Of a DNA stretch of 64,000 nt, positions 26,141-52,425 are shown in pieces (within the stretch, counting starts at the first letter, position 1; each line of letters opens with the position of its first letter). The translations under genes were made by a program, and so were the position numbers. The stretch covers positions 62,001-126,000 of the forward strand of contig JAVTVY010033773.1 of assembly GCA_036873755.1 (NCBI GenBank), read 5' to 3'. This DNA comes from Hanleya hanleyi. Lineage: Eukaryota > Mollusca > Polyplacophora > Lepidopleurida > Hanleyidae. The notes under the pieces are model-generated. The model saw only the letters and a program-made list of their open reading frames with translations, ran no database searches and had not been told where the DNA came from.

Positions 26141-26209
26141 CGCATTGCGCCGCAAGGTCAATAGGGCTCGAAATGCGCTTTTATACTATTAATCCATCCT
26201 TCACTGCCC

Positions 26210-27110
26210 CAAAATGCCCGCTTTCGCTACTACTCGTATTGATGACGTCACCGATGACGTCACAGATGATGCAAACATCCCTGAAATCGGAGTCTACCCC
26301 CCGAGAGCTACAAAATGACACCTCCCACGACATAATCGGACCAAGGATTGTCCCTCTCTACCCCAAATACCTTCCTTCACTGCCCCAAGATGTCCACTTT
26401 CGCAACTACTCCTACTGATGACGTCACTGATGACGTCACAGATGACGAGAACATCCCTCAAATCGGGATGTACACCCCGAGAGCTACAAAATGACACCTC
26501 CCAGGACGCATTCGGACCAACGATGGTCCCTCTCTACCCCAAATACCTTCCTGCACTGCCACAAATTGTCCACTTTCGCTACTACTCCTACTGATGACGT
26601 CACAGATGACGCGAACATCCCTCAAATCGGGGTCTACACACCGAGAGCTACAAAATGACACCGCCCACGACACAATTGGACCAAGGATGGTCCCTCTCTA
26701 CCCAAAATACCTTCCTGCACTTCCTTAAAATGCCCACTTTCGCTACTACTCGTACTGATGACGTCACCGATGACGTCACAGATGACGCGAACATCCCTCA
26801 AATCGGGTCTACATCCCGAGAGCTACAAAATGACCTCTCCCACCACACAATCGGACCAAGGATGGTCCCTCTCTACCCAAAATACCTTCCTGCACTTCCC
26901 TAAAATGCCCACTTTCGCTACTACTCGTACTGATGACGTCACCGATGACGTCACAGATGAAGCGAACATCCCTAAAATGGAGATGTACACCCCGAGAGCT
27001 ACAAAATGACACCTCCCAGGACGCATTCGGACCAAGGATGGTCCCAGTCTACCCCAAAAACACTTCCATGCACCCTCAAAATGGCCGCTTTACTTACTAC
27101 AAACAACTGC
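26210..27110. repeat. ~175-bp tandem array rich in CRE octamers
   Basis: Five units with a period of 166-177 bp each carry one or two perfect TGACGTCA octamers (the CREB/ATF site) near 26,240, 26,417, 26,590, 26,756 and 26,931. Shared strings are CGAGAGCTACAAAATGACA, TCGGACCAAGGATGGTCCC and CCCACTTTCGCTACTACTCG. The same unit recurs at 35,275-35,870 and 41,850-42,262 in the large element. Confidence 0.88.
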
Positions 27111-29600: not shown

Positions 29601-29619
29601 GTTTTCCTAGGTCAGAGCT

Positions 29620-30440
29620 GTCCCGCAGTAATCCCACACAGGACTGGCTTATCCAGCAGTAATCCCACACAGGACTGACCTATCCAGCAGTTACCCAAAT
29701 GGCACTGGCCTATCCAGCGGTAATGCCACACGGGACTGACCTATCCTGCAGTAATCCCAGACCGGATTGGCTTATCCAGCAGTAATCCCACATGGGACTG
29801 GCCTATCCAGCAGTAATCTCACACGGGACTGGCCTATGCAGCAGTAATCTCACACGGGACTGACCTATCTAGAAGTAATATGACACTGGACTGAAATGCA
29901 GCAGTAATCCCACATGGCACTGACCTATCCAGCCATAATCCTACAAGGGACTGACCTATCCTGCTGTAATCCCGCACAGGTTTAGCCTATCCAGCAGTAA
30001 TCCCACACGGGACTGGCCTCCCCAGCCGTAAGCCCACACAGGATTGCCGTATGCAGCAGTAATCCCACACTGGACTGCCTATGCAGCAGTAATCCCACAT
30101 GGGACTGTCCTATCCAGCTTTAATCCCATACGAGACTCATCTATCCAGCAGTAATCCCAGACAGGACCGGCCTATCCAGCAGTAATCCCACTTGGGACTG
30201 GACTATCCTGCAGTAAATCCCACAGGGGACTGGTCTAGTCATCAGTAATAACACACGGGACTGGTCCATCCAGCAGTAATCCTACACAGGACTGGCCTAT
30301 CCAGCAGTAATCTCACATGGGGCTGACCTATCCAGCAGTAATCTCACACTGGACTGCCCTATGCAGCAGTAATACCACGGCACTGACCTATCCATCCTAC
30401 ATGGAATTAACTTATATGCCGTTAATCCTACACGGGACTG
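29620..30440. repeat. 31-bp minisatellite, about 26 units
   Basis: The unit reads approximately CCAGCAGTAATCCCACACGG then GACTGGCCTAT. Units differ at a few positions and some are shortened. No function is evident. Confidence 0.9.
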
Positions 30441-32019: not shown

Positions 32020-32025
32020 TACATA
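32020..32025. repeat. Target-site duplication, left copy (TACATA)
   Basis: TACATA lies immediately before the AGTAGTATATAG terminus and is repeated exactly at 45,436-45,441. A 6-bp duplication is the size made by Polinton/Maverick integrases. Confidence 0.85.
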
Positions 32026-32499
32026 AGTAGTATATAGCGAGCATTACAGCGCAAGTTGACCTGGCGTAAGAATCTGGCGTCGAGGACAAGTGCATTATGG
32101 TACGGGCGAAAACCGGCAAAAGAGTGCGCCGTCTCAAAAAGGACGCCGTCTCATGTGGAGGTCATGTGGAGGTCACGTGATGGTCAAGTGCATGGGGCAT
32201 GTATTCCTCCGCAGTGATGTGGTCTGGCGGTGATGCGGTCTGCCTCCGCGGACAGAAATTAGTCCCCAGACTTCAAATACGCTGCATGTACCGATTGGGT
32301 CGAGTGAGGTGTCAAAGTGAAGCGCTCCTCCAGGACCATATGGAATGCATGTACAGACTTGTATCTGGGTTTTTTCCATCATGCGGCGGTCTCGTGATTA
32401 AGAGTGCATCTACGGACTTGTATGCCGTCCATTCATTTGAGTCGGGGACTTGGGGTCCCTACAGAAGGATTTTGCAAGTCATGGCTGGGTGTATGTAAA

Positions 32500-33720
32500 A
32501 TGATGATTTGTCTCGAAAATATAAAAAGCGGAACACGGACTTTACCCCTACAATGGAGGAAAACCCCTATCAACCCTATCCCAAAGGGCTAATATCGGTC
32601 CCGGGCTTATCGGGTTCTGCCTGGAGTGGGTGTATGTAAATTTAGGATTTGTCCCGAAAATATAAAAAGCGGAACACGGACTTTACCCCTACAATAGAGG
32701 AAAACCCCTATCAACCCTATCTCAAAGGGCGAATATCGGTTCCTGGATTATCGGGGCCTGCTGAGAGAGGTAGGGTGGGGGAGTGGGTGCATGTAAATTG
32801 AGGATTTGTTCCTGAAAATATAAAAAGCGGAACACGGACTTTACCCCTAAAATAGAGGAAAACCCCTATCAACCCTATCCCAAATGGCTAATATCGGTCC
32901 CCGGGCTTATCGGGTTCTGCCTGGAGTGGGTGTATGTAAATTTAGGATTTGTCCCGGAAATATAAAAAGCGGAACACGGACTTTACCCCTACAATAGGAG
33001 AATACTCCTATCAACCCTATCCAAAAGGTCGAATATCGGTCCCCGGGCTTATCGGGTTCTGCTGAGAGAGGTGGGGTGGGGGAGTGGGTGCATGTAAATT
33101 GAGGATTTGTCACCGAAAATATAAAAAGCGGAACACGGACTTTACCCATAAAATAGGGGAAAACTCCTATCAACCACGTCTAGTGGGGCTTATCGGAGCC
33201 TGCCGACAGATGTAGGATGAGAGAGTGGGTGCATGTAAATTGAGGATTTGTCCCGAAAATACAAATATAAAAAGCAGAACACGGACTTTACCCCTACAAT
33301 AGGGGAAATCTCCTATCAACCTTGTGTGTTCTGCTGAGAGAGGTGGGGTGGGGGAGTGGGTGCATGTAAATTGAGGATTTGTCACCGAAAATATAAAAAG
33401 CGGAACACGGACTTTACCCATAAAATAGGGGAAAACTCCTATCAACCACGTCTAGTGGGGCTTATCGGAGCCTGCCGACAGAGGTAGGATGGGGGAGTGG
33501 GTGCATGTAAATTGAGGATTTGTCCCAAAAATATAAAAAGCGGAACACGGACTTTACCCCTACAATAGGGGAAAACACCTATCAACCACGTCTAGTGGGG
33601 CTTATCGGAGCCTGCCGACAGAGCTAGAGTGGGGGAGTGCGTGTATGTAAATTTAGAATTTGCCCCGAAAATATAAAAAGTGGAACACGTACTTTACCCC
33701 TAAAATAGGGGAAACCCCTA
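32500..33720. repeat. ~148-bp tandem units, left arm
   Basis: On the plus strand each unit carries ATATAAAAAGCGGAACACGG and ACTTTACCCCTA, GGGGAAAACTCCTATCAACC, and AGTGGGTGCATGTAAATT. There are about eight units, two of them with TTATCGGGTTCTGC variants. Overlapping 60-100 residue frames are repeat artefacts. Confidence 0.88.
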
Positions 33721-33794
33721 TCAACCAGGTCTAGAGGGCCATGTATAGACCGGAGAGAGAACAACAACAACAACACCAACAAGTGTTCATATAG

Positions 33795-33844
33795 TTTATT
33801 ATCCCTCCCGTACATCATACCCACGATGGAGGAGCCGCGTTGGG
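33795..33844 (-). promoter_or_regulatory. Stem-loop plus AATAAA module, copy 2 (left arm)
   Basis: Read on the minus strand: CCCAACG, loop CGGCTCCTCCAT, CGTGGG, then TATGATGTA and AATAAA (hexamer complement at 33,795-33,800). It mirrors 42,586-42,635. Confidence 0.5.
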
Positions 33845-34156
33845 TTTGTTTACAATACAAGTAGGCTTTTGTCCAATCAGAAGCCGCCATGGCGCTACAT
33901 CTGTCATATTCGTTCTTGCCCGTTAGATGTATTCTCGGCTGCTCTTATCCAATCAAAAAAACATGTACTCTGTTCATGTCCATGTATACATACTCTGTCA
34001 TGTCCATGTACATAAACTCTGTCCATGTCGCTAGATAGCTGAAATATTGCGGAATGCGACGTTAAATCTTAATTGTCTCTCTTCATGTACATGCACTCTA
34101 TCCATGTACATGTTTCTTGTCCATGTCCATGTAGCCTGTCCATGTACATGTACCAT

Positions 34157-35274
34157 TACAAGCGTCTAGTCCGTCATTCATAATCCAGCCGTCGTCCATT
34201 AGAGAATATCCCCGTCCATAATCCAAAGACCTATTCCATATTCCATATAACATTATTAGCACCAAATTCAAAAAGACAATCATAGTATACATAAACATAG
34301 GCTTGTTTTCTGCAAGAGAGAAGCGGTCAACAGTTTTCAATGATGCCGGCAAGACATCATGATGTTCCAAAAATATCAAATCCGTATCGCTGATCAGTAT
34401 TCTTAATCCATAATATTCGTTGTAAAGTCGTCATCTAAAGAATGATGTATCTCAGTCACGCTTTGATTGTGACTGTTCATATGAGTACCATGAGGATCTT
34501 GAAGTACATGGGTTCATACGGCCCCTAGCCCCGGGTTAAGCGGAATTAGACACAAGTTACGAAACGTAGCGCTATAGATCTTGCACGCTACGTTCGTATT
34601 TTGCTATCAGCATGCGATATGTATCGCCAAATTTGAGAAACTTTGAGTGGAGGCGCTTGGTGGAGTAGCCCTGTTTTATAAGTTTCTGCAACAATGTTTT
34701 GTGACGTTGATTAAAATCGTCACATTTAACACAGGATCTAGCAAATGCTACTAAGCGAGATATGTATACGCCATATGCAGGTCCCACTGGAATATTACTG
34801 TCCAGAAAGGGATTGTAATCATCTCTTTTGTCATAAAGTCGACGAGAGAGAAGGCCCGCTTCATTTTTATAGAGATAGAGATCTAAATAGGATGTGCCTG
34901 TAGGGCTATCTGTAGTTTCCTTCAAATCCAGTGAAGGTGGATATATATCCTTCACCGCGTCATTTATATAGCGATTATCCACAGCGAGAAGATCGTCTAT
35001 ATAGCGTTTGGTGAATGAGAAGGAACGGGCTTTGAATGGATCGGTTTTTGAAAGCGCCTGCATATAGTCATATTCATAATAGAACTGATACAGGTCAGCC
35101 AACCGGGTTGCACAATTAGTACCCATTGGAATACCTATATGCTGCTCATATATTGTGTTGCCAAATTCCACATAGATATTTTTAATGAGAAATTCAAGCA
35201 ACTTTATAAACAAAGAAACATCCCATGAATGATATCTCTTGTATGTAGTCTAGCTAAAGAATGCTTGATGGCTT
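34157..35274 (-). mobile_element. 5'-truncated retroelement inserted only in the left arm
   Basis: The right arm runs continuously at the matching site (about 42,265), while the left arm has 1.1 kb of extra sequence between GTACATGTACCAT and CCAAGGGGTGTGTGG. The insert encodes the C-terminal half of a reverse transcriptase on the minus strand, followed by ~415 bp of 3' sequence. A related copy lies at about 51,345-52,425 and a 3' fragment at 55,217-55,306. It must have arrived after the arms became duplicated, or been lost from one arm. Confidence 0.8.
34572..35213 (-). pseudogene. Reverse transcriptase C-terminal fragment (MGTNCA...YIDD family)
   Basis: The frame encodes about 213 residues and keeps GIPMGTNCATRLADLYQF, the catalytic FTKRYIDDLLAV box, SLDLKETTDS, SYLDLYLY, LYDKRDDYN and GPAYGVYISRLVAFAR. 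These are landmarks of a reverse transcriptase family very common in aquatic invertebrates. Whether it is Penelope-like or another clade I cannot decide from the fragment. The fingers and the first catalytic aspartate block are missing because the copy is 5'-truncated, so it cannot be active. It reads on upstream past 35,213 without a good start codon. Confidence 0.75.
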
Positions 35275-35870
35275 CCAAGGGGTGTGTGGAGGTGTGTTTG
35301 GGGTAGAGAGGGACCATCCTTGGTCCGAATACGTCGGGGGGGTGTCATTTTGTAGCTCTCGAGGTATAGATCCGATTTGAGGGATGTCCGCGTCATCTGT
35401 GACGTCATAGGTGACGTCATCAGTACGAGTAGTAGCCAAAGTGGGCATTTTGGGGCAGTGAAGGAAGGTATTTGAGGTAGAGAGGGACCATCCTTGGTCC
35501 GAATGCGTCGTGGGAGGTGTCATTTTGTAGTTCTCGGGGTGTACATTCCGTTGAGAGATGTTCACGTCATCTGTCACGTCATCGGAGACGCCATCAGTAC
35601 GAGTTGTAGCCAAAGTTGGGACATTTTGGGACAGCGAAGGAAGGTATTTGGTGTAGAGATGGACCACTATTGGTCCGAATGCGTCGTGTCGGGTATCAGT
35701 GTGAAGCTCTCGTGGGTCAGACTGGCTTGTTTTCATTGGAGCTCGCGCCAATCGGCGCATGCGCAGTTGGCCAGTGGGTTTTCCCGTCGTTCCTCCATCT
35801 TCCATACGGATAGTGGTCCGAATGGCCCGTGTGGGGTATCAGTGTGAAGCTATCGTGGGTCAGACTGGCT
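35275..35870. repeat. CRE-bearing repeat units, left arm
   Basis: Three units on the minus strand are related to the 26.2-27.1 kb array, with TGACGTCA near 35,400-35,420 and degenerate forms near 35,575. The last unit ends in a variant with GCTCGCGCCAATCGGCGCAT and TCAGTGTGAAGCTCTCGTGG. Confidence 0.8.
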
Positions 35871-36003
35871 TGTTTAAAAAAAAAAGCGGAACACGGACTT
35901 TACCCCTAAAATAGGGGGAACCCGTATCAACCAGGTCTAGAGGGTCATGTATAGACCGGAGAGAGAACAACAACAACAACAACACCAACACGTGTTCATA
36001 TAG

Positions 36004-36054
36004 TTTATTATCCCCTCCCGTACATCATATCTACGATGGAAGAGCCGCGTTGGG
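36004..36054 (-). promoter_or_regulatory. Stem-loop plus AATAAA module, copy 3 (left arm)
   Basis: This is the mirror of 41,669-41,719. The hexamer complement TTTATT is at 36,004-36,009. The distal stem reads ATCTACG, slightly decayed relative to the right arm. Confidence 0.45.
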
Positions 36055-36367
36055 TATGTTAACAATACAAGTAGGCTCTTGTCCAATCAGAAGCCGCCAT
36101 TTGGCGCTGCATCTGTTCTTACCCGTTAGATGTATTCTCGGCTGCTCTTATCCAATAAAAAAAAACATGTACTATGTTGATGTCCATGTATACATACTCT
36201 GTTCATGTCCATGTACATACACTCTGTCCATGTCGCTATATAGCTGAAATATTGCGGAATGCGACGTTAAACCTTAATTCTCTCTCTCTTCATGTACATG
36301 CACTCTATCCATGTACATGTTTCTTGTCCATGCCGCCTGTAGCCTGTCCATGTACATGTACCATCAC

Positions 36368-36886
36368 CAATCTGTATTATACCAAATCTGTCCTGTATTG
36401 TACCATATTTGTCCTCTTTTATACCGTATATGTTCTGTATTATACCAAATCTGTGCTGTATTATAGTATCTGTCCTGTATTATACCAAATCTGTGTTGTA
36501 TTATACCATATCTGTCCTGTATTGTACCATATATGTCCTGTATTATACAATATATGTTCTGTATTATACAATATTTGCCCTCTATTATACCATATCTGTG
36601 CTGTATTATACCATATCTGTCCTGAATTATATCATATCTGTGCTGTATTATACAATATCTGTCCTGTGTTATACAATATCTGTCCTGTATTATACCAAAT
36701 CTGTCCTGTATTGTACCATATTTGTCCTGTATTATACAATATATGTTCTGTATTATACCAAATCTGTGCTGTATTATACAGTATCTGTCCTGTATTATAC
36801 CAAATCTGTGCTGTATTATACCATATCTGTCCTGTATTGTACCATATATGTCCTGTATTATACAATATATGTTCTGTATTATACAA
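36368..36886. repeat. 21-bp minisatellite, left arm
   Basis: Units of CTGTCCTGTATTATACCATAT (21 bp) repeat about 24 times with small variants. Because 21 is a multiple of three, most frames stay open and yield heptapeptide repeats (ICPVLYH-like). The 291-residue frame at 36,174-37,049 is explained by this and is not called as a gene. Confidence 0.9.
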
Positions 36887-36936
36887 TCGGATAGCGGTTG
36901 TCGTGAATAACAACAAGTTCAGCAATGTTCATACAG

Positions 36937-36987
36937 TTTATTATCCCCAATGTTACATCATACCCAGGCTGGGGGAGCCGCCCTGGG
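36937..36987 (-). promoter_or_regulatory. Stem-loop plus AATAAA module, copy 4 (left zinc-finger gene)
   Basis: Minus strand: CCCAGG, loop with GCGGCTCC, CCTGGG, then TATGATGTAACATTGGGG and AATAAA (complement at 36,937-36,942). It lies about 175 bp after the stop of the left zinc-finger gene. A closer AATAAA (complement TTTATT at 37,038-37,043) is an alternative poly(A) signal. Confidence 0.5.
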
Positions 36988-37162
36988 CATGTTTAGTATG
37001 TTCACAGCAAAACAAATTGAAATATCAAACACCATGTTTTATTATTTAACGCACAGTCACATTAGGTACAAGTGTTTACTGAGCTCAAGTCAACGAACAG
37101 CCTGTAGACATATAGAGTATGTACGGCATGTTATGGTATTCATCAGTGCACGGGTGACGCGT

Positions 37163-38050
37163 TCATCCGAGGGGGTTGATCAGTTTAGCCACGAAGAACG
37201 TAACTTTGGTCACCCTCTCCACTGTCCACTTGGTGTTGGGGCGTTGTTGTTGGGCCCATTCCAAGGGGTCCACGGTGTCCAGTTTCCCCAGCATCGTCTC
37301 TAGCGACGCCCGGTTAATGATGGTAAACGGTTGGTCAAATACCCGGATGTTACTGCTCGGGTAAAAGTATCGGATTTGGTCTGTCTCCTTATGTTGCAGC
37401 ACATAATCAAACGCCAGATTCAACTTGAAGGCCGTAGTTTGATCGTTGAAGATGGCTTCCACGTAGATGCGTAGGCGGTCGAGGTCGGTCAGTCGGAAGT
37501 TGTAGATATCTTGAATAGGGCGATGACGGTGGAAACAGTGCCGGATCATGGGCCAATGGCGCCGATAGATGTCACTCACTGGATGGTCTTCGTGTAACAG
37601 ATCACTAGGAACATTTATGGATTCGTCCTCGAAGAGTACTTTGCTCTCCACGCCGTGCAAAATCTGGCCCAAGGTCTTGTCGGAATTTGACTGTTGAATT
37701 AGGGCGACATCATCATCGGCCCTCGTGCGATGGGTGGAAGTTCCAGCTGTCTCGATACTGGTGCCTACGGGCTCCTCTACCTGCAAACGTTGCTGCGGAA
37801 CAGGGTGCCGTGTGCGTTGGTGTCGCAGCAACTGACTGATCAGTTTGAAAAGCCGACCACATTCTTCGCATAGATGCTTGGGTGCCCCATGCACTGTCCG
37901 TTCGTGACACCGTAGACTGTCCAAGCGATTAAATATTTTCCCACACCTCGTACAGCTATACCGGGCGGTTCCGTCGTGCTTGGTAGCCTCATGGCGGCGC
38001 AAGTCGTGCGGACGAGTGAATGATTTCGAGCACGTAGTACAAGTGAACAT
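37163..38050 (-). CDS. C2H2 zinc-finger protein with PolB-N-like domain, left-arm copy
   Basis: This is an intact single-exon frame of 295 residues. Three complete C2H2 fingers (C-X2-C-X12-H-X4-H) lie at about residues 4-25, 33-54 and 61-82. A Thr/Asp-rich linker follows, with VALIQQSNSDKTLGQILHG. The C-terminal domain starts near residue 158 (DIYRRHWPMIRHCFHRH, FKLNLAFDYVLQHKETD, RYFYPSSNIRVFDQPF, QQQRPNTKW, VTKVTFFVAKL). It is the palindromic partner of the gene at 39,674 and differs from it by only a few residues. It is transcribed away from the element centre, head-to-head with the gene at 38,353. A sequence-specific DNA-binding role is suggested by the fingers; the C-terminal domain's role is unknown. 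Confidence 0.78.
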   Translation of the reverse strand: MFTCTTCSKSFTRPHDLRRHEATKHDGTARYSCTRCGKIFNRLDSLRCHERTVHGAPKHLCEECGRLFKLISQLLRHQRTRHPVPQQRLQVEEPVGTSIETAGTSTHRTRADDDVALIQQSNSDKTLGQILHGVESKVLFEDESINVPSDLLHEDHPVSDIYRRHWPMIRHCFHRHRPIQDIYNFRLTDLDRLRIYVEAIFNDQTTAFKLNLAFDYVLQHKETDQIRYFYPSSNIRVFDQPFTIINRASLETMLGKLDTVDPLEWAQQQRPNTKWTVERVTKVTFFVAKLINPLG

Positions 38051-38192
38051 CTTGGTGGCTGACAGAGTGTCTGATGAAACGGCCAGGCCGCTTCGCTTTT
38101 ATAGCACGCTAGCTGATGATCTATTTTTAGTACACTCAGTTCAAGTACCGCCAAGTCGAGGACCGAGATGTACTCGTGTACGTCTGAGCCGC
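38051..38192 (-). promoter_or_regulatory. TATA promoter of left-arm zinc-finger gene
   Basis: Minus-strand blocks are a MEF2-like CTAAAAATAG (complement at 38,121-38,130), TATAAAAG (complement at 38,096-38,103), and the quasi-palindrome GAAGCGGCCTGGCCGTTTC (complement at 38,076-38,094). With the promoter at 38,207 it forms a divergent pair separated by an ACACGCGCGCGCAATGCG stretch. Confidence 0.72.
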
Positions 38193-38206
38193 ATCACACG
38201 CGCGCG

Positions 38207-38352
38207 CAATGCGGCTCAGTCGTACACCAGTACATCTCGGTCCTCGACTTGGGGGTAGTTGAACTGAGTGTGCTAAAAATAGATCACCAGGTAGCGTGCT
38301 ATAAAAGGGAAGCGGCCTGGCCGTTTCATCAGACACTCTGTCAACCACCAAG
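38207..38352 (+). promoter_or_regulatory. TATA promoter of central zinc-finger gene
   Basis: Blocks are GTACATCTCGGTCCTCGACT, CTAAAAATAG at 38,273-38,282, TATAAAAG at 38,300-38,307 and the quasi-palindrome at 38,309-38,327. The ATG follows 45 bp after the TATA box. Confidence 0.72.
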
Positions 38353-39273
38353 ATGTTCACTTGTACTACGTGCTCGAAATCATTCACTCGTCTGCACGAC
38401 TTGCGCCGACATGAGGCTACCAAGCACGACGGAACCGCCCGATATCGCTGTACGATATGTACACTGTCGTTTCAACGCCCAGATCAGTTACAGCGCCATG
38501 AACGTTCAATTCATGGGCCACCCAAGCGTCCATGCGAAGAATGTGGTCGGCTTTTCAAACTGACCAGTCAGTTGCTGCGACACCAACGCACACAACACCC
38601 TGTTCCACAGCCACGTTTGCAGGTAGAGGAGCCTGCAGGCACCAGTATCGAGACAGCAGGAACTTCCATCCATCGTACGAGGACCGATGATGATGATGAT
38701 GTCGCCCTAATTCAACAGTCAAATTCCGACGACAAGACCTTGGACCAGATTTTGTACGACGTGGAGGGCAAAGTACACTTCGCGAACGAAGCCATAAATG
38801 TTCCTAGCGATCTGTTACACGAAGACCATCCAGTGAGTGACATCTATCGGCGCCATTGGCCCATGATCCGGCACCGTTTCCACCGTCATCACCCTATTCA
38901 AGATATCTACAATTTCCGACTGACCAACCTCGCCCGTCTACGCAGCTACGTGGAAGCTACCTTCAACGATCAAACTACGACCTTCAAATTGAATCTGGCG
39001 TTTGGTTATGTGCTGCAGCATAGGGAAGCAGACCAAGTCCGATACTTTTACAAGAGCAGTAACATCCGGATATTTGACCAACCGTTTACCATCACGGATA
39101 GAGCGTCGCTAGAGATGATGCTGGCGAAACTGGACACCGTGGATCCCTTGGAATGGCCCCAACAACAACGCCCTAACACCCAATGGGTCGTAGAGAGGGT
39201 GACCAATGTCACGTTTTTCGTTACCCAAGCTGACCGTCCACCCCATCGGCTGAATGCTTCACCGATGGACTGA
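38353..39273 (+). CDS. C2H2 zinc-finger protein with PolB-N-like domain, central copy (altered C-terminus)
   Basis: This is an intact frame of 306 residues and the only copy outside the palindromic arms. It has three C2H2 fingers near residues 4-25, 33-54 and 61-82. The second finger (CTICTLSFQRPDQLQRHERSIH) matches copy 1 at 24 kb rather than the arm copies, so the finger region looks like a mosaic. The linker has an expanded Asp run from a GAT repeat. The C-terminal domain is conserved up to NVTFFVT. An extra C in the CCC at 39,224-39,226, relative to the other copies, then shifts the frame and replaces the usual short C-terminus with QADRPPHRLNASPMD. A single-base difference in the assembly could also cause this. 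Confidence 0.75.
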   Translation: MFTCTTCSKSFTRLHDLRRHEATKHDGTARYRCTICTLSFQRPDQLQRHERSIHGPPKRPCEECGRLFKLTSQLLRHQRTQHPVPQPRLQVEEPAGTSIETAGTSIHRTRTDDDDDVALIQQSNSDDKTLDQILYDVEGKVHFANEAINVPSDLLHEDHPVSDIYRRHWPMIRHRFHRHHPIQDIYNFRLTNLARLRSYVEATFNDQTTTFKLNLAFGYVLQHREADQVRYFYKSSNIRIFDQPFTITDRASLEMMLAKLDTVDPLEWPQQQRPNTQWVVERVTNVTFFVTQADRPPHRLNASPMD

Positions 39274-39363
39274 TGAATACCATAACATGCCGTACATACT
39301 CTATATGTCTACATGCTGATCGTTGACGGCGTCAACGTCAGGTGTTGGTGGTGGTGTGAGGAT

Positions 39364-39369
39364 AATAAA
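39364..39369 (+). promoter_or_regulatory. Poly(A) signal candidate of the central gene
   Basis: AATAAA lies 91 bp after the stop. The 3' flank up to CTGATCGTTGAC is shared with the right-arm gene. Confidence 0.5.
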
Positions 39370-39527
39370 ACGTGTATTACGCAATGTGACTGATGTTGTT
39401 GATGTCTCTTGGTTGTGTTTATATTGAATGGGTCTGAGCATATTGATGCGATGAGAGGAAGTTTTCGGAGAGAACGTAATTCGACATTGCGCACGGTTGG
39501 ACTCAAACACAAACACACACACACGCG

Positions 39528-39673
39528 CAATGCGGCTCAGACGTACACCAGTACATCTCGGTCCTCGACTTGGCGGTACTTGAACCGAGTGTACTAAAAA
39601 TAGATCACCAGCTAGCGTGCTATAAAAGCGAAGCGGCCTGGCCGTTTCATCAGACACTCTGTCAGCCACCAAG
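39528..39673 (+). promoter_or_regulatory. TATA promoter of right-arm zinc-finger gene
   Basis: CTAAAAATAG is at 39,594-39,603, TATAAAAG at 39,621-39,628 and the quasi-palindrome at 39,630-39,648. The palindromic similarity to the left arm ends at about 39,528, at the GCGCAATGCGGCTCAGACGT string. Confidence 0.72.
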
Positions 39674-40564
39674 ATGTTCACTTGTACTACGTGCTCGAAA
39701 TCATTCACTCGTCCGCACGACTTGCGCCGCCATGAGGCTACCAAGCACGACGGAACCGCCCGGTATAGCTGTACGAGGTGTGGGAAAATATTTAATCTGC
39801 TGGACAGTCTACGGTGTCACGAACGGACAGTGCATGGGGCACCCAAGCATCTATGCGAAGAATGTGGTCGGCTTTTCAAACTGACCAGTCAGTTGCTGCG
39901 ACACCAACGCACACGGCACCCTGTTCCGCAACCACGTTTGCAGGTAAAGGAGCCCGTAGGCACCAGTATCGAGACAGCTGGAACTTCCACCCATCGCACG
40001 AGGGCCGATGATGATGTCGCCCTAATTCAACAGTCAAATTCCGACAACAAGACCTTGGGCCAGATTTTGCACGGCGTGGAGAGCAAAGTACACTTCGCGG
40101 ACGAATCCATAAATGTTCCTAGTGATCTGTTACACGAAGACCATCCAGTGAGTGACATCTATCGGCGCCATTGGCCCATGATCCGGCACTGTTTCCACCG
40201 TCATCGCCCCATTCAAGATATCTACAATTTCCGACTGACCGACCTCGACCGCCTACGCATCTACGTGGAAGCCATCTTCAACGATCAAACTACGGCCTTC
40301 AAGTTGAATCTGGCGTTTGCTTATGTGCTGCAGCATAAGGAGACAGACCAAATCCGATACTTTTACCCGAGCAGTAACATCCGGGTATTTGACCAACCGT
40401 TTACCATCATTAACCGGGCGTCGCTAGAGACGATGCTGGGGAAACTGGACACCGTGGATCCCTTGGAATGGGCCCAACAACAACGCCCCAACACCAAGTG
40501 GACAGTGGAGAGGGTGACCAATGTTACGTTCTTCGTGGCTAAACTGATCAACCCCCTCGGATGA
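39674..40564 (+). CDS. C2H2 zinc-finger protein with PolB-N-like domain, right-arm copy
   Basis: This is an intact frame of 296 residues. Fingers lie at residues 4-25, 33-54 and 61-82, all with C-X2-C-X12-H-X4-H spacing. The linker (83 to ~155) is rich in Thr, Ser and Asp. The C-terminal domain of about 140 residues has DIYRRHWPMIRHCFHRH, FKLNLAFAYVLQHKETD, RYFYPSSNIRVFDQPF and QQQRPNTKW, and ends NVTFFVAKLINPLG. It lies downstream of and parallel to the central gene, 400 bp after that gene's stop. Its own AATAAA is at 40,684-40,689, and a stem-loop/AATAAA module follows at 40,740. The four copies together define the family. I recognise no stand-alone protein of this architecture with known function. 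Confidence 0.78.
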   Translation: MFTCTTCSKSFTRPHDLRRHEATKHDGTARYSCTRCGKIFNLLDSLRCHERTVHGAPKHLCEECGRLFKLTSQLLRHQRTRHPVPQPRLQVKEPVGTSIETAGTSTHRTRADDDVALIQQSNSDNKTLGQILHGVESKVHFADESINVPSDLLHEDHPVSDIYRRHWPMIRHCFHRHRPIQDIYNFRLTDLDRLRIYVEAIFNDQTTAFKLNLAFAYVLQHKETDQIRYFYPSSNIRVFDQPFTIINRASLETMLGKLDTVDPLEWAQQQRPNTKWTVERVTNVTFFVAKLINPLG

Positions 40565-40739
40565 ACGCGTCACCCGTGCACTGATGAATACCATAACATG
40601 CCGTACATACTCTATATGTCTACATGCTGATCGTTGACTTGAGCTCAGTAAACACTTGTACCTAATGTGACTGTGCGTTAAATAATAAAACATGGTGTTT
40701 GATATTTCAATTTGTTTTGCTGTGAACATACTAAACATG

Positions 40740-40790
40740 CCCAGGGCGGCTCCCCCAGCCTGGGTATGACGTAACATTGGGGATAATAAA
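40740..40790 (+). promoter_or_regulatory. Stem-loop plus AATAAA module, copy 5 (right zinc-finger gene)
   Basis: CCCAGG (40,740-40,745) pairs with CCTGGG (40,759-40,764) around a GCGGCTCC loop. AATAAA is at 40,785-40,790. Confidence 0.5.
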
Positions 40791-40837
40791 CTGTATGAAC
40801 ATTGCTGAACTTGTTATTCACGACAACCACTATCCGA

Positions 40838-41352
40838 TTGTATAATACAGAACATATATTGTATAATACAGGACATATATGGTACAATACAGGACTGATA
40901 TGGTATAATACAGCACAGATTTGGTATAATACAGGACAGATACTGTATAATACAGCACAGATTTGGCATAATACAGAACATATATTGTATAATACAGGAC
41001 AAATATGGTACAATACAGGACAGATTTGATATAATACAGGACAGATATTGTATAACACAGGACAGATATTGTATAATACAGCACAGATATGACATAATTC
41101 AGGACAGATATGGTATAATACAGCACAGATATGGTATAATAGAGGGCAAATATTATATAATACAGAACATATATTGTATAATACAGGACATATATGGTAC
41201 AATACAGGACAGATATGGTATAATACAACACAGATTTGGTATAACACAGGACAGATATTATAATACAGCACAGATTTGGTATAATACAGAACATATATGG
41301 TATAAAAGAGGACAAATATGGTACAATACAGGACAGATTTGGTATAATACAG
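40838..41352. repeat. 21-bp minisatellite, right arm
   Basis: This is the mirror of 36,368-36,886, with units of the ATATGGTATAATACAGGACAG type. The 305-residue minus-strand frame at 40,678-41,595 arises from the 21-bp period. Confidence 0.9.
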
Positions 41353-41668
41353 ATTGGTGATGGTACATGTACATGGACAGGCTACAGGCGGCATGGACAA
41401 GAAACATGTACATGGATAGAGTGCATGTACATGAAGAGAGAGGGAATTAAGGTTTAAGGTCGCATTCCGCAATATTTCAGCTATATAGCGACATGGACAG
41501 AGTGTATGTACATGGACATGAACAGAGTATGTATACATGGACATGAACATAGTACATGTTGTTTTTTTATTGGATAAGAGCAGCCGAGAATACATCTAGG
41601 GCAAGAACAGATGCAGCGCCAAAAGGCGGATTCTGATTGGACAAGAGCCTACTTGTATTGTTAACATA

Positions 41669-41719
41669 CCCAACGCGGCTCCTCCATCGTGGGTATGATG
41701 TACGGGAGGGGATAATAAA
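41669..41719 (+). promoter_or_regulatory. Stem-loop plus AATAAA module, copy 6
   Basis: CCCAACG (41,669-41,675) pairs with CGTGGG (41,688-41,693) with one bulged base. TATGATGTA and AATAAA (41,714-41,719) follow. No gene lies directly upstream; an ATTGGAC box does. Confidence 0.45.
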
Positions 41720-41849
41720 CTATATGAACACGTGTTGATGTTGTTGTTGTTTTCTCTCTCCGGTCTATATATGACCCTCTAGACCTGGTTGATAAGGGTT
41801 TCCCCTATTTTAGGGGTAAAGTCCGTGTTCCGCTTTTGTTTAAAAAAAA

Positions 41850-42262
41850 GCCAGTCTGACCCACGAGAGCTTCACACTGATACCCCACACGGGCCATTCG
41901 GACCACTATCCGTATGGAAGACGGAGGAATGACGGGAAAACCCACTGGCCAACTGCGAATGCGCCGATTGGCGCGAGCTCCAATGAAAACAAGCCAGTCT
42001 GACCCACGAGAGCTTCACACTGATACCCCACACGACGCATTCGGACCAATAGTGGTCCATCTCTACACCAAATACCTTCCTTCACTGTCCCAAAATGCCC
42101 ACTTTGGCTACTACTCGTACTGATGAAGTCACCGATGACGTCACAGATGACGCGGACATCCCTCAAATCGGGTCTGTACCCCGAGAGCTACAAAATGACA
42201 TCCCACGACGTATTCGGACCAAGGATGGTCCCTCTCTACCCCAAACACACCTCCACACACCC
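41850..42262. repeat. CRE-bearing repeat units, right arm
   Basis: The region mirrors 35,275-35,870 with fewer units. The TGACGTCA octamer is kept near 42,136, while the first site of the unit has decayed to TGAAGTCA (42,124). Confidence 0.75.
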
Positions 42263-42585
42263 CCTTGGTGATGGTACATGTACATGGCCAGGCTACATGG
42301 ACATGGACAAGAAACATGTACATGGATAGAATGCATGTACATGAAGAGAGAGAATTAAGATTTAACGTCGCATTCCGCAATATTTCAGCTATATAGCGAC
42401 ATGGACAGAGTGTATGTACATGGAAATGAACATAGTATGTATACATGGACATGAACAGAGTACATGTTTTTTTGATTGGATAAGAGCAGCCGAGAATACA
42501 TCTAACGGGCAAGAACGAATATGACAGATGCAGCGCCAAATGGCGGCTTCTGATTGGACAAAAGCCTACTTGTATTGTAAACAAA

Positions 42586-42635
42586 CCCAACGCGGCTCCT
42601 CCATCGTGGGTATGATGTACGGGAGGGATAATAAA
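42586..42635 (+). promoter_or_regulatory. Stem-loop plus AATAAA module, copy 7
   Basis: CCCAACG (42,586-42,592), CGTGGG (42,605-42,610) and AATAAA (42,630-42,635). It sits directly before the 148-bp units. Confidence 0.45.
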
Positions 42636-42719
42636 CTATATGAACACTTGTTGGTGTTGTTGTTGTTGTTCTCTCTCCGGTCTATACATGGCCCTCTAGA
42701 CCTGGTTGATAGGGGTTTC

Positions 42720-44990
42720 CCCTATTTTAGGGGTCAAGTACGCGTTCCACTTTTTATATTTTCGGGGCAAATTCTAAATTTACATACACGCACTCCCCCA
42801 CTCTAGCTCTGTCGGCAGGCTCCGATAAGCCCCACTAGACGTGGTTGATAGGTGTTTTCCCCTATTGTAGGGGTAAAGTCCGTGTTCCGCATTTTATATT
42901 TTCGGGACAAATTCTCAATTTACATGCACCCACTCCCCCATCCCACCTCTGTCGGCAGGCTCCGATAAGCCCCACTAGACGTGGTTGATAGGAGTTTTCC
43001 CCTATTTTATGGGTAAAGTCCGTGTTCCGCTTTTTATATTTTCGGTGACAAATCCTCAATTTACATGCACCCACTCCCCCACCCCACCTCTCTCAGCAGG
43101 TCCCGATAAGCCCGGGGGACCGATATTCGAACTTTTGACAGGAGGTTTCCCCTATTGTAGGGGTAAAGTCCGTGTTCCGCTTTTTATATTTTCGGGACAA
43201 ATCCTCAATTTACATGCACCCACTCTCCCATCCTACATCTGTCGGCAGGCTCCGATAAGCCCCACTAGACGTGGTTGATAGGAGTTTTCCCCTATTTTAG
43301 GGGTAAAGTCCGTGTTCCGCTTTTTACATTTTCGGGGACAAATCCTCAATTTACATGCACCCACTCCCCCACCCTACCTCTCTCAGAAGGCCCCGATAAG
43401 CCCGGGGGACCGATATTCGACCTTTTGGATAGGGTTGATAGGTGTTTCCCCCTATTGTAGGGGTAAAGTCCGTGTTCCGCTTTTTATATTTCCGGGACAA
43501 ATCCTAAATTTACATACACCCACTTCAGGCAGAACCCGATAAGCCCGGGGACCGATATTAGCCATTTGGGATAGGGTTGATAGGGGTTTTCCTCTATTTT
43601 AGGGGTAAAGTCCGTGTTCCGCTTTTTATATTTTCGGGGACAAATCCTCAATTTACATGCACCCACTCCCCCACCCTACCTCTCTCAGCAGGCCTCGATA
43701 AGCCAGGAACCAATATTCGCCCTTTGGGATAGGGTTGATAAGGGTTTTCCTCTATTGTAGGGGTAAAGTCCGTGTTCCGCTTTTTATATTTTCGGGACAA
43801 ATCCTAAATTTACATACACGCACTCCCCCACTCTAGCTCTGTCGGCAGGGTCCGATAAGCCCCAGTAGACGTGGTTGATAGGTGTTTTCCCCTATTGTAG
43901 AGGTAAAGTCCGTGTTCCGCTTTTTATATTTTCGGGACAAATTCTCAATTTACATGCACCCACTCCCCCATCCCACCTCTGTCGGCAGGCTCCGATAAGC
44001 CCCACTAGACGTGGTTGATAGGAGTTTTCCCCTATTTTATAGGTAAAGTCCGTGTTCCGCTTTTTATATTTTCGGTGACAAATCCTCAATTTACATGCAC
44101 CCACTCCCCCACCCCACCTCTCTCAGCAGGTCCCGATAAGCCCGGGGGACCGATATTCGAACTTTTGACAGGAGGTTTCCCCTATTGTAGGGGTAAAGTC
44201 CGTGTTCCGCTTTTTATATTTTCGGGACAAATCCTCAATTTACATGCACCCACTCTCTCATCCTACATCTGTCGGCAGGCTCCGATAAGCCCCACTAGAC
44301 GTGGTTGATAGGAGTTTTTCTATTTTAGGGGTAAAGTCCGTGTTCCGCTTTTTACATTTTCGGGACAAATCCTCAATTTACATGCACCCACTCCCCCACC
44401 CTACCTCTCTCAGAAGGCCCCGATAAGCCCGGGGGACCGATATTCGACCTTTTGGATAGGGTTGATAGGTGTTTCCCCCTATTGTAGGGGTAAAGTCCGT
44501 GTTCCGCTTTTTATATTTCCGGGACAAATCCTAAATTTACATACACCCACTTCAGGCAGAACCCGATAAGCCCGGGGACCGATATTAGCCATTTGGGATA
44601 GGGTTGATAGGGGTTTTCCTCTATTTTAGGGGTAAAGTCCGTGTTCCGCTTTTTATATTTTCGGGGACAAATCCTCAATTTACATGCACCCACTCCCCCA
44701 CCCTACCTCTCTCAGCAGGCCTCGATAAGCCAGGAACCAATATTCGCCCTTTGGGATAGGGTTGATAAGGGTTTTCCTCTATTGTAGGGGTAAAGTCCGT
44801 GTTCCGCTTTTTATATTTTCGGGACAAATCCTAAATTTACATACACCCACTCCAGGCAGAACCCGATAAGCCCGGGGACCGATGTTAGCCCTTTGGGATA
44901 GGGTTGATAGGGGTTTTCCTCCATTGTAGGGGTAAAGTCCGTGTTCCGCTTTTTATATTTTCGAGACAAATCATCATTTTACATACACCC
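42720..44990. repeat. ~148-bp tandem units, right arm, with a ~1-kb higher-order duplication
   Basis: About fifteen units carry GGGTAAAGTCCGTGTTCCGC and TTTTTATATTTTCGGGACAA. Block 42,790-43,790 is repeated almost verbatim at 43,815-44,800, so the array grew by block duplication after the arms separated. Confidence 0.88.
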
Positions 44991-45435
44991 AGCCATGACT
45001 TGCAAAATCCTTCTGTAGGGACCCCAAGTCCCCGACTCAAATGAATGGACGGCATACAAGTCCGTACATACACTCTTAATCACGTGACCGCCGCATGATG
45101 GAAAAAACCCCAGATACAAGTCTGTACATGCATTCCATATGGTCCTGGAGGAGCGCTTCACTTTGACACCTCACTCGACCCAATCGGTACATGCAGCGTA
45201 TTTGAAGTCTGGGGACTAATTTCTGTCCGCGGAGGCAGACCGCATCACCGCCAGACCACATCACTGCGGAGGAATACATGCCCCATGCACTTGACCATCA
45301 CGTGACCTCCACATGACCTCCACATGAGACGGCGCACTCTTTTGCCGGTTTTCGCCCGTGCTATAATGCACTTGACCTCGACGCCAGATTCTTACGCCAG
45401 GTCAACTTGCGCTGTAATGCTCGCTATATACTACT

Positions 45436-45441
45436 TACATA
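45436..45441. repeat. Target-site duplication, right copy (TACATA)
   Basis: TACATA directly follows the ...CTATATACTACT terminus and matches 32,020-32,025. Confidence 0.85.
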
Positions 45442-47965: not shown

Positions 47966-48183
47966 CTTCAGCTGTTGGCTGTAAGCATTCAAAAATAGAT
48001 CTTGTATGTTCCTATACTGCTTGAATCCAAGATGATCAAATCTGTCCTGAATTGCATTAATAATTCGATATAGGACATCAAAGTATTGACAGTGAATGTT
48101 GCGCCGTGTCTGCGCGAAGTGCGCAATTGCATCGTCCAGTTCGTCTGAGCATATCGCGGTTACGCGAGAATTTGCTCCATCAA

Positions 48184-49998
48184 GTTTTTAGCCCACCATC
48201 ACCAGATCGCTTTTCGTCCGTGGTCCGTCGTCAGTCAGTCGTCCGTCAGTCGTCCGTCCGTAAACAATTCTTGTTATCGCGATTTCTCAGGAACTACTGT
48301 GTGGATCTTTCTGAAATTTGGTACACAGGTTCCCCTTGGGGTCTAGTTGTGCAAGATACCTTTTCTGGTTCGATACGAAAATCCAATATGGCCACCAGGC
48401 AGCCATCTTGGATTTCCCCATGAAACCTTGTAATCGCGATTTCTCGGGAACTACTGCGTGGATCTTTCTCAAATTTGGTACACAGGTTTCCCTTGGGGTA
48501 TAGTTGTGCAAGATACCTTTTCTGGTCCGATTCGAAAATCCAATATGGCCATCAGGCGGCCATCTTGGATTTCTCCATGAAACCTTGTTATCGCGATTTC
48601 TCAGGAACTACTGCATGGATCTTTCTCAAATTTGGTACACAGATTCCCCTTGGGGTCTAGTTGTGCAAGATACCTTTTCTGGTCCGATTTGAAAATCCAA
48701 TATGGCAACAAGGCAGCCATCTTTGATTTCCCCATGAAACTTTGTTATTGTCATTCCTCAGGAAATATTTCATGGATCTTTCTCAAATTTGGTACACAGC
48801 TTCCCCCTAGGGTCTAGTTGTGCAAGATATCTTTTTCGGTCCGAATCAAAAATCCAATATGGCCACCAGGCGGCCATCTTAGATTTCCCCATGAAACCTT
48901 GTTATTGCTATTTCTCGGGAACTACTGCATGGGTCTTTCTCAGATTCGGTACACAGGTTCCCCTTGGGGTTTAATTGTGCAAGATATCTTTTCTGGTCTG
49001 ATTCGAAAATCCAATATGGCCACCAAGCAGCCATCTTGGATTTCCCCATGAAACCTTGTTATCGCAATTGCTCAGGAACTACTGCATGAATCATTCTCAA
49101 GTTTGGTACACAGGTTTCCCTTGAGGTCTAGTTGTGCAAGATACCTTTCGGGTCCGATTCGAAAATCCAATATGGCAACAAGGCGGCCATCTTGGATTTC
49201 CTCGTGAAACCTTGTTATCGCTATTTATCAGGAACTACCGCATGGATCTTTCTCCAATTTGGTACACAGGTTCCCCTTGGGGTCTAGTTGTGCAAGATAC
49301 ATTTTCTGGTCCGATTCGAAAATCCAATATGGCCACAAGGCAGCCATCTTGGATTTCCCCATGAAACTTTGTTATTGTCATTTCTCAGGAAGTATTGCAT
49401 GGATCTTTCTCAAATTTGGTACACAGGTTAAGGTCTAGTTGTGCAAGATACCTTTTTCGGTCCGAATCGAAAATCCAATATGCCCACCAGGCGGCCATCT
49501 TAGATTTTCCCATGAAGCTTTGTTAATGCGATTTCTCAGGAACTACTGCACGGATCTTTGTCAAATTTGGTACACAGCTTCCCCTTAGGGTCTAGTTGTG
49601 CAAAATACCCTTTTCGGTCCGATTCGAAAATCCAATATGGCCACCAGGCGCCCATGTTGGATTTCCCCTTGAAACATAGTTCTCGTGAATTCTCACAAGG
49701 CAGCCATCTTGGATTTCCCCATGAAACTTTATTGTCATTTCTCAGGAAGTATTGCATGGATTTTTCTCAAATTTGGTACACAGATTCCCCTTAGGGTCTA
49801 GTTGTGCAAGATACCTTTTTCTTTCCGATTCGAAAATCCAATATGGCCACAAGGCGGCCATCTTTGATCCCCCCATGCAACTTTGTTGTCGTGATTTCTC
49901 AGGAAGTACTGCATGGATCTTTCTCAAATTTGGTACATAGGTTCCCCTTGGGGTCTAGTTGTGCAAAATATCCTTTTTGGTCCGATTCGAAAATCCAA
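48184..49998. repeat. 157-bp tandem array B with the same kind of head
   Basis: The head TTTTTAGCCCACCATCACC and CGTCCGTCAGTCGTCCGTC is followed by about eleven 157-bp units (AATCCAATATGGC near 48,379, 48,536, 48,693, 48,850, 49,007, 49,164, 49,321 and on). It matches array A at 13,237. Frames inside are repeat artefacts. Confidence 0.9.
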
Positions 49999-51340
49999 GT
50001 TACGTTTCAAATTAATACGGTATTCCCCAGTTGTGACGTTGCATCACACGGTGGGACATATTCTATATAGAGAATATCCATACCTTCACCTTCCATATCA
50101 AGTGGTTCAAATAATTCGGAATTAAAATGTATTTCTTCAAATTTTAAATCAGTTTCTTTAGTCCAGTGAACTGACCCACTGTTTCGTCTGCCGACGGGTC
50201 GGCTACATGAAGGGACGTCACTCTTGTGACACAACGTAACAAGTCGACAATTGTAGACTACTGCGTGTTTCGATCCAAGGGAGATAATCAGGATTCAGAC
50301 ACTTTCGAAGTTCAACATTACTGCGCGGGTCCCTTCAGTATTAAGTATTGTATCATCTTACTATTTTCGAGCATGGTATCTTAAAAGAGATATCTCAAAC
50401 TAGCCCAGTAAACGGAACAGAATTCGTTCCTAATTATAAAATCTTAAGTATGTTTCATAGCTCATGCCAAAGAGTCGGAGAGATTTGTCTTCGCTTCCGG
50501 TACCCAATGATGACACTTGCCAAAAAAATACTACAAAAAAAAAGACGAAGGATCCTCCGGACATTCACTTTCAGACTAACTTTTCTCTTGTGCTATAACA
50601 ACCGGCGTAAGTACAGTTTCTAGAAATCTTGAAACTCATTAAACTTAGAAAGATGATATCTTGTTGTTTTCCAGTGTCCCTTTTTCGATCTTTTTCGCTC
50701 AGATTCGAAATTCTGTAAACAAAATTACAAATCAATCGTTTGTTCTTAGTAACAATGGACAAAAAGACCCTCTTGTCATTAGCTTACAATTATCGGGCAA
50801 TGGTGGGCGCTAAGATCCTTCAGGATCTCTCGTTGTGAGTTGGCATGTGACACAACTTTCTGATAAAACTAAAACTAGTCGAAAGTTTTAACGGTCAGTG
50901 CCGCGTGCCTGGACTGTTTTGCTGAGATTGTCACCAAGTTTCAGAACGAGATAGAACAGTGATATTCTAAAGAATAAAATTTCCGCAATTGGTACTGAAC
51001 ACAAACATTCCCAGATTTGACGTCAGCCTCTTTGAGGTACTGCAGTGCTTCATCTCACAAGTTGTTCAGAACCATATAATTACTCAAAATACCCGAGAGA
51101 TAGTTTGAACGAACGGTCCATTGTGTTGGACGAAGAGCCCGGAGTATTGCTGGCGAAGCCTTTATGATGGAGATTTTGGATTATGAATCACACCAATAAA
51201 ATAATTAAAATGTTGTGAAATTAAATAATATAAGGGCGATGTGTTCTAGTATTGAGAAATGATGTGAATTATAGACATTCTTAGGAGGACTTGTATCGGT
51301 ATATCGGTGTTATCTGATCGCCTATATATTAATGTCAGAA
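49999..51340. other. Non-coding stretch, nothing recognised
   Basis: The longest minus-strand frame (50,007-50,234) has plausible composition but no recognised motif or supporting signal. Confidence 0.35.
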
Positions 51341-51344
51341 GCCA

Positions 51345-52425
51345 TAAATCATTCTTTAGCTCTACTACATACATGTACAAGGGATATCATTCATGGGATG
51401 TTTCTTTGTTTATAGAGTTGCATGAATTCCTCATTAATAATATGTAGGTACTTAATTTCTCATTAATAATATGTAGGTACATATAGGTATTTCAATGGGT
51501 AATAATTTGTGCACCCTTTTTGGTTGACCTATTTCTGTTCTCTTCTGAATACGACTATATGCAGACGCTTTAAAAACAGATAATTGTTGTGGATAATCTC
51601 TATATAAATGACCAAGTGAAAGATATATATCCACCTTCACTGGATTTGAAGGAAACTACAGATAACCCTAGCAGCACATCTTATTTATACCTATATCTGT
51701 ATAAAGATGAAGCGGGCCGTCTCTCTCGTCGACTTTACGACAAAAGAGATGATTACAATTTCGACATCGTAAACTATCCCTATCTGGTGAGCAATATATC
51801 AGAGGGATCTGCATAGAGCCTATACATATCTCGCCTATTAAATTTGCTATAACCTGTATTAAATATGACGGTTATAATCAACGACACAAAACATTATTGC
51901 TGAAACTTATAAAACAGGGCTATATCATCAAGCGCCTCCACTCGAAGTTTCTCAAATTTGGCGATACATATCGCATGCTGATAGCAAAATTCGAGCGTAG
52001 CGTGCAAGATCTATGGCAGTACGTTTCGTAACTTGTGTGTAATAACTGAGACACGTGGCCGTATGAATCGGTGTATTTCAAGATCATCATAGTGTACATA
52101 TGAACAGACACCATCAAAGCGTGACTGAGATACATCCTTCTTTAGATGACGACTTTACAACGAAAAGCATATGGATTAAGAATACTGATCAGCGATACGG
52201 ATTTGATATTTTTGGAACATGATAATGTCTTGCTGGCAACATTGAAAACTGTTGACCGCTTCTTTATAGCAGGAAACTAGAGTTTTATGTATACTATGAT
52301 TTATTCTTTTAATTTGGTGCTTGTGCTATTGTATGATTTAGATATTTGGATTATGGACGTGGAAATTCTTTAATAGACGACGGCTGAATATTGAATGACG
52401 GACTAGACGCTTGTAGTTCTCTAAC
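51345..52425 (+). pseudogene. Second copy of the MGTNCA/YIDD reverse-transcriptase element, degraded
   Basis: The sequence is similar to the minus strand of 34,157-35,274. It keeps IYPPSLDLKETTDN, SYLYLYLYKDEAG and RLYDKRDDYN, then, after frame breaks, KFLKFGDTYRMLIAKFERS and the shared 3' sequence GATACGGATTTGATATTTTT. The region with the catalytic YIDD box is missing or scrambled between 51,500 and 51,590. It is older and more damaged than the copy in the large element. Confidence 0.75.

Follow-up and report, generated by a model that had tools for sequence, protein, structure and literature searches.

A palindromic, probably Polinton-derived element that recurs at separate sites in the genome of Hanleya hanleyi

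The DNA analysed here (the window) is a 64 kb stretch, C29129:62001-126000, of the 2.48-Gb Hanleya hanleyi assembly. It contains a 13,410 bp element (nt 32026–45435) that has the ends and target-site duplications of a Polinton and is laid out as a palindrome, and related palindromes are inserted at other sites in the genome. Judged from its sequence, the element appears to be a Polinton derivative rather than an autonomous Polinton. The reading we favour, with a probability of about 0.55, is that it belongs to a non-autonomous, mobile family of palindromes in which one end of a Polinton was mirrored by snap-back synthesis, and the product integrated as a unit and was amplified.

The element is flanked by the 6-bp target-site duplication TACATA (nt 32020–32025 and 45436–45441). 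Its left terminus is the 17-mer AGTAGTATATAGCGAGC (nt 32026–32042, + strand), which is common to the gene-bearing Polintons of this genome, and an inverted copy forms the right terminus (nt 45419–45435, − strand), exactly as the initial annotation had stated. The long palindromic arms described there were also recovered by self-comparison. The left arm (nt 32026–38194, + strand) is mirrored by a right arm (nt 39530–45435, − strand) that is 94–97% identical to it in the main blocks, an outer one (nt 32024–33726 against 45437–43733, 94% identity) and an inner one (nt 35471–38194 against 42245–39530, 97% identity). Symmetry between the arms is incomplete, with a one-sided insertion, unequal repeat arrays and an unpaired central gene copy. 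Subterminal arrays of ~140-bp repeats are found at nt 32486–33738 and, in a longer version, at nt 42692–44991, and 21-bp tandem arrays at nt 36372–36884 (left arm) and 40840–41352 (right arm). The insertion (1.1 kb, nt ~34160–35275, − strand) is present in the left arm only, has relatives at nt 51338–52415 and carries an open reading frame (ORF; nt 34572–35249) that has no Pfam match and which, from a motif, we take to be reverse-transcriptase-like (RT-like).

Three ORFs near the middle of the element specify proteins with three N-terminal C2H2 fingers followed by a domain resembling the N-terminal region of the Polinton DNA polymerase, PolB (PolB-N). Frame A (nt 37163–38098, − strand, 311 aa) points to the left end, and its mirror partner, frame C (nt 39626–40564, + strand, 312 aa; 98.3% DNA identity), points to the right end. 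Frame B (nt 38305–39273, + strand, 322 aa) is a central copy without a mirror partner and shows ~89% DNA identity to A and C. Within the central segment (nt 38195–39529), the joint between the A and B copies lies at nt 38201/38202 without a spacer and is read as a probable deletion scar, from which a fourth gene copy (B') and a central hairpin would have been lost.

The 6-bp duplication and the inverted terminal repeats beginning with AG are features of Polintons, and a genome-wide search for loci with the same ends supports derivation of the element from this group. Genome-wide, the 17-mer terminus was found at 105 places and its reversed control at none, so the shared termini are not due to chance. 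From 100 of the 105 places, 16 further convergent end pairs, each on a single contig, were retrieved. The window pair and four pairs identified subsequently bring the total to 21 end pairs, and their flanking hexamers match at 6/6 positions in 12, at 5/6 in six and at 4/6 in three; mismatched pairings gave 0, 3 and 26 of 420 at the same levels. Genes for an integrase and an ATPase are present in the same-ended elements of C22295, C2404, C14814, C17693, C4091 and C6750, five of which (the exception is C17693) also carry a capsid-type gene, and PolB is found in C22295 and C5705, with a match to PF03175 in the latter. Pfam domains scoring above cut-off in the frames tested from same-ended elements were rve, Chromo and DNA_pol_B_2. 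The ATPase gave an A32/FtsK-like match below the curated cut-off, while the capsid-type protein, itself without a Pfam match, has many homologues, one of them with a double-jelly-roll (DJR)-like Pfam domain; the named homologues among the matches listed include marine invertebrates, at 56% identity or less.

The assignment to Polintons made in the initial annotation is thus upheld by same-ended relatives with genes for rve integrase (six elements), PolB, ATPase and a capsid-type protein, and the search that it proposed for other loci with these termini and 6-bp duplications did find such copies. In the window element itself, tblastn detected no integrase, ATPase, PolB core, capsid-type gene or either of two further proteins. 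Since the rve integrase is absent from the element yet present in its same-ended relatives, the element would be a derivative and not an autonomous member. The earlier statement that it lacks replication and capsid genes is correct for the genes searched in this way, but the retained gene is related to the N-terminal region of PolB. Similarly, the gene said to be the only one kept does encode zinc fingers, but these are fused to the PolB-N-like domain.

The palindromic layout is not a unique oddity, as six more elements with AGTAG-type ends, at different sites, are at least 84.8% mirrored. Among 20 elements measured, the mirrored fraction was 84.8–99.7% in seven, 55.7–78.9% in four short ones (C28433, 55.7%; C23001, 66.0%; C19930, 76.2%; C20290, 78.9%) and 10.0% in C41309; the remaining eight, the longest non-palindromic elements, gave 5.3–23.6%. 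Compared with Polinton/Maverick elements (Polintoviruses), the window element shares 6-bp duplications, AG...CT ends, inverted terminal repeats and the ends of local gene-bearing elements, but differs in lacking the searched core genes and in being mirrored about its own middle over 90.2% of its length, far more than those eight. Of the 17 same-contig convergent pairs, 16 were measured for mirroring (the outer C14390 pair was left out), and three of these (window, C28747 and C32592) reached at least 84.8%. The palindromes of C39729, C24922 and C42445 were chosen for their divergent gene pairs and are not a sample of palindrome frequency.

The ends of window-subfamily palindromes are defined at five sites. 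Besides the window these are C39729 (duplication ATCGCT, 6/6), C24922 (GATCAC, 6/6), an inner element in C14390 (ACACTG, 6/6) and C42445 (GTGGTC/GTGGGC, 5/6), and the ends of these four are of the AGTAG type, differing from the window 17-mer. In C14390 this inner palindrome sits between the two ends of another element, and the outer flanks of that element match at 4/6 positions. Two further copies, C47620 and C35987, retain partial arms on both sides and a partial centre, with outer ends that are not delimited. Because matched duplications flank the palindromes at five different sites, each of them entered its site as a finished palindrome. Three gene contents are mirrored in the elements as a whole: the finger/PolB-N gene, a second finger gene in C28747 (99.7% mirrored) and a gene encoding CARD and PC4 domains in C32592 (84.8% mirrored). 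The arms are not merely enlarged terminal repeats, as they contain the gene.

Several comparisons suggest a link between the two arms of a palindrome and a single end of a gene-bearing element. The window arm has the order terminus, repeats, outward-pointing finger gene, as does the left end of C14814, and no such gene is present in the right half of C14814; the finger/PolB-N gene is therefore found at one end in C14814 and in both halves of the palindromes. In C32592 an inward-pointing CARD gene is found at both ends, whereas the full-length C22295 element has an inward CARD gene at one end and PolB at the other. Each half of C28747, one of them in mirror orientation, matches the single-copy element C41309 over the stretch that starts at the hairpin and includes the gene, and the ends of C28747 match the right 227 bp of C41309, reaching beyond the 161-bp repeat of that element. 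On these sequence comparisons, the palindromes of the window, C32592 and C28747 can each be read as one Polinton end copied twice.

The fullest layout was found in C39729, which has two gene copies per side (C', B' | B, C), the right inner copy being broken by an insertion. Its centre is a 1,310-bp self-palindrome with its middle at 4411.5, the position of a 178-nt hairpin (4324–4501; folding energy −152 kcal/mol, RNA parameters). Complete copies of this hairpin separate the arms in C39729 and C14390, C28747 has a 155-nt form in the same place, and C42445, C24922, C47620 and C35987 retain part of it there; the window element is without both the hairpin and B'. The genome contains 798 hairpin candidates, and the best 40 of them that were scored, a set biased to the most alike and including the query, are 95–100% identical to the query. 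Four further hairpin loci were retrieved; inverted flanks are complete over 357–402 bp in two of them and consist of broken pieces in a third. C41309 has the hairpin next to one of its terminal repeats, with no symmetry extending further, and this element may represent either a state preceding mirroring or a deletion product. Another hairpin of the same module (173 nt, nt 22379–22551) lies in the window outside the element, at the middle of a 1.5-kb palindrome (nt 21708–23209).

A tree of 15 gene segments bears on the later history of the arms. In three of the four elements that could be tested, the two arms are each other's nearest relatives (window, support 100; C42445, 100; C39729, 98). As the arms cluster within elements despite the shared centre, this suggests that they were re-copied from each other, or homogenised, once the subfamily had spread. 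The relatives suggest a history of tandem gene duplication, mirroring, homogenisation of the arms and central deletions, probably in that order. The initial annotation had proposed amplification by inverted duplication, which agrees with the mirrored arms but is too simple for this succession of events.

Under the reading preferred here, one Polinton-type end, comprising terminus, subterminal repeats and outward finger/PolB-N gene, would have been copied in mirror image, and the two ends of the product would be the same original end. In the family of the window element the mirror point would lie beside or within the 178-nt hairpin upstream of the gene. The copying may have occurred by snap-back synthesis on the displaced single strand of a linear molecule replicating by protein priming. 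Such a palindrome would retain both terminal sites and could be integrated as a unit by a Polinton integrase supplied in trans, with 6-bp duplications, and then be amplified, and the finger gene may bring some benefit. To our knowledge, the protein-primed linear replication of Polintons, a mode deduced from their gene content, has never been watched directly. Errors in the strand-displacement replication of a linear genome could give rise to mobile palindromes of this kind, derived from one end and flanked by matched duplications, and both their number and their age are accessible from sequence data.

Viral systems offer parallels to the proposed step. Adenoviruses produce symmetric palindromic defective genomes, in which one end of a protein-primed linear DNA is mirror-duplicated; among the papers listed by the literature search there was no adenovirus study of these genomes. 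Adeno-associated virus (AAV) is a parvovirus with hairpin-primed replication. Its snapback genomes, a form of defective interfering DNA, are described in passages of PMC8235507 as self-complementary, symmetric or asymmetric, and derived from the left or right part of the genome, the left form containing a promoter and part of the replication gene. They resemble the palindromes described here in being self-complementary molecules from one part of a linear genome, but those passages of PMC8235507 mention no chromosomal palindrome family with target-site duplications. For Polintons, no palindromic form was found among the titles and abstract openings listed by the literature search, with subscription journals and repeat databases outside the scope of the search. 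Within that scope the earlier remark that no Polinton derivative of this layout has been described still holds, but the layout is not unique within this genome.

A number of observations weigh against the snap-back reading. The CARD proteins of C32592 and C22295 are just 44% identical, and the C32592 palindrome has no hairpin. At the DNA level C14814 and the window arm have the gene region in common and not the subterminal repeats, and this comparison yielded no direct progenitor with matching subterminal repeats. The sequence that the ends of C28747 share with the right end of C41309 also belongs to a 508-bp terminal repeat found at both ends of C17693, so the ends of C28747 alone prove no one-end origin. 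In C24922 the arms do not group together, and the left gene copy appears to be a chimera between an outer and an inner copy; support for several deeper branches of the tree is also low (45–86). The fourth of the further hairpin loci has inverted flanks of only 54 bp, and the hairpin might be the product of mirroring instead of its cause, with C41309 a deletion derivative. The homogeneity of the arms also fits gene conversion in the chromosome, and no replication intermediate was seen in the assembled sequence, the only material used.

The main competing explanation, which we consider rather unlikely, is a chromosomal origin. Head-to-head insertion, or unequal or inverted recombination together with gene conversion, would have lengthened the repeats, and the result would then have moved by cut and paste. 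Lengthening of terminal repeats by recombination or conversion has been proposed for Foldback-like elements, and other superfamilies include Foldback-type elements whose inverted repeats are long. The four elements of intermediate symmetry are what stepwise lengthening would leave, and homogenisation of the arms within single elements is also expected under this explanation. Against it, the matching duplications at five subfamily sites make the palindrome older than each insertion, and a gene confined to one end in gene-bearing relatives occupies both halves of the palindromes. Chromosomal intermediates with two facing inner ends were not seen, though few loci were read. Foldback/Galileo elements resemble the window element in having inverted repeats that are very long and repetitive internally, with little unique sequence at the centre. 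They have termini of the P-superfamily transposase type and longer target duplications, whereas here the arms hold a gene, the duplications are of 6 bp and the ends are those of elements with an rve integrase.

If the snap-back reading is taken further, mirroring could be a regular product of Polinton replication, with snap-back molecules arising continually and, in one family, folding back at a conserved hairpin. Those that kept the finger/PolB-N gene, the second finger gene or the CARD gene would survive as satellite palindromes, living off autonomous elements and perhaps regulating them. We regard this extension as distinctly doubtful; if true, the palindromes would preserve fossil traces of how linear DNA replicates by protein priming in animals.

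In frames A, B and C of the finger/PolB-N gene, the second half shares 60–62% identity with the N-terminal part of the C22295 and C5705 PolB proteins, and this resemblance rules out a stand-alone host zinc-finger gene. Two database proteins combine the fingers, the PolB-N-like region and a further segment, presumably the next segment of PolB, within one frame, and frames A and C terminate exactly where the PolB reading frame continues. The related finger gene of the gene-bearing C14814 element is near the integrase-side end and points outward, and its DNA match extends ~300 bp beyond the stop codon of the window gene; for these reasons the short form is probably a Polinton gene in its own right and not a local accident. 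The predicted structure of the PolB-N-like domain is weak (mean pLDDT 68.3), with a best match in the PDB of E 0.083. The gene is abundant, with 132 matches scored among 46,832 first-look candidates.

That the layout serves a selected function, either as a central bidirectional promoter driving two finger/PolB-N regulators or as a source of paired transcripts silencing relatives, seems improbable. The centre does lie between divergent genes, and the best-scoring hairpins are highly alike. The finger ORF has no in-frame stop in 112 of the 132 scored matches, a count favouring intact copies, and among ten open frames (copies containing stops were excluded) dN/dS is 0.40–0.44 for pairs that include the most distant gene copy. 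Other pairs with the older copy outside the element in the window (nt 24208–25083, + strand) give 0.52–0.62, however, and values among close pairs reach 1.12, so that constraint on the gene is weak at most. The mirrored gene content also varies between palindromes, the genes of the CARD palindrome are convergent, and selection leaves the formation of the mirror unexplained.

Palindromes are difficult to assemble, and the question of an artefact, in which the assembler reverse-duplicated one arm, was judged from the assembled sequence. Such an artefact is highly improbable given the differences between the arms (3–6%, with unequal repeat arrays and an insertion in one arm only) and the matching duplications in both flanks; the layout is also common to separate loci. 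The assembly failure that is visible runs in the opposite direction. One finger-gene subfamily has 39 matches of near-identical score (566.5–566.7 bits, including C8700, C15230 and C19418) and is probably a recent burst. When the divergent pair of C33851 is set aside, 37 copies remain, and in 12 of these the contig ends 412–524 bp upstream of the gene, approximately at the position of the palindrome centre. Among the first 33 copies, 10 end in this interval, 16 within 1.5 kb and 17 more than 1.5 kb away; of the four extra copies, C38284 (448 bp) and C5330 (505 bp) fall within it and C4199 and C16366 end far away. Downstream of the gene, none of 21 tested copies has a contig end within 1.5 kb. 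The stops would mark points where assembly failed in the middle of younger and more perfect palindromes, and mobile palindromes may thus explain some assembly breaks.

Other eukaryotic transposons also make 6-bp duplications, and yet a different transposon class with termini alike by chance can be practically dismissed, as elements carrying Polinton gene sets have the identical 17-bp ends and the reversed control gave no match.

Around the 1.5-kb palindrome outside the element, the nearby old gene copy and repeats at nt 26191–27100 complete what looks like a decayed relative beside the element. The second finger gene specifies a protein of ~215 aa with one C2H2 finger and was found at L024:1374-2018 and in L032, L033, L035 and L037. 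In the last four it is carried by short same-ended elements with no full copy of the other searched Polinton genes, and in L035 an integrase fragment is situated just outside the element end. In C37189 (L018:2564-8555) the same gene flanks both sides of a 961-bp self-palindrome (4853–5812) that insertions have disrupted; this may be another old palindrome. The Polinton-borne gene with CARD and PC4-like domains, mirrored in C32592, was found at L013:831-2243 and L036:1096-2325 and 5415-6645. RING-type genes lie near it in L013, and together these look like an apoptosis- or immunity-related accessory set.

Frames of the presumed RT-like type, labelled as above, recur in or near these elements (window nt 34572–35249 and 51338–52415, L014:9638-9964, L018:3546-4237), and in C22295 one of them adjoins the PolB frame. 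Two long adjoining frames (359 and 1226 aa; L019:1172-5910) are inserted in the C37189 element and look like a gag-pol retroelement. The window also contains long arrays with units of 58 bp (nt 17804–20390), 31 bp (nt 29610–30418) and ~157 bp (nt 13464–14393 and 48114–50025).

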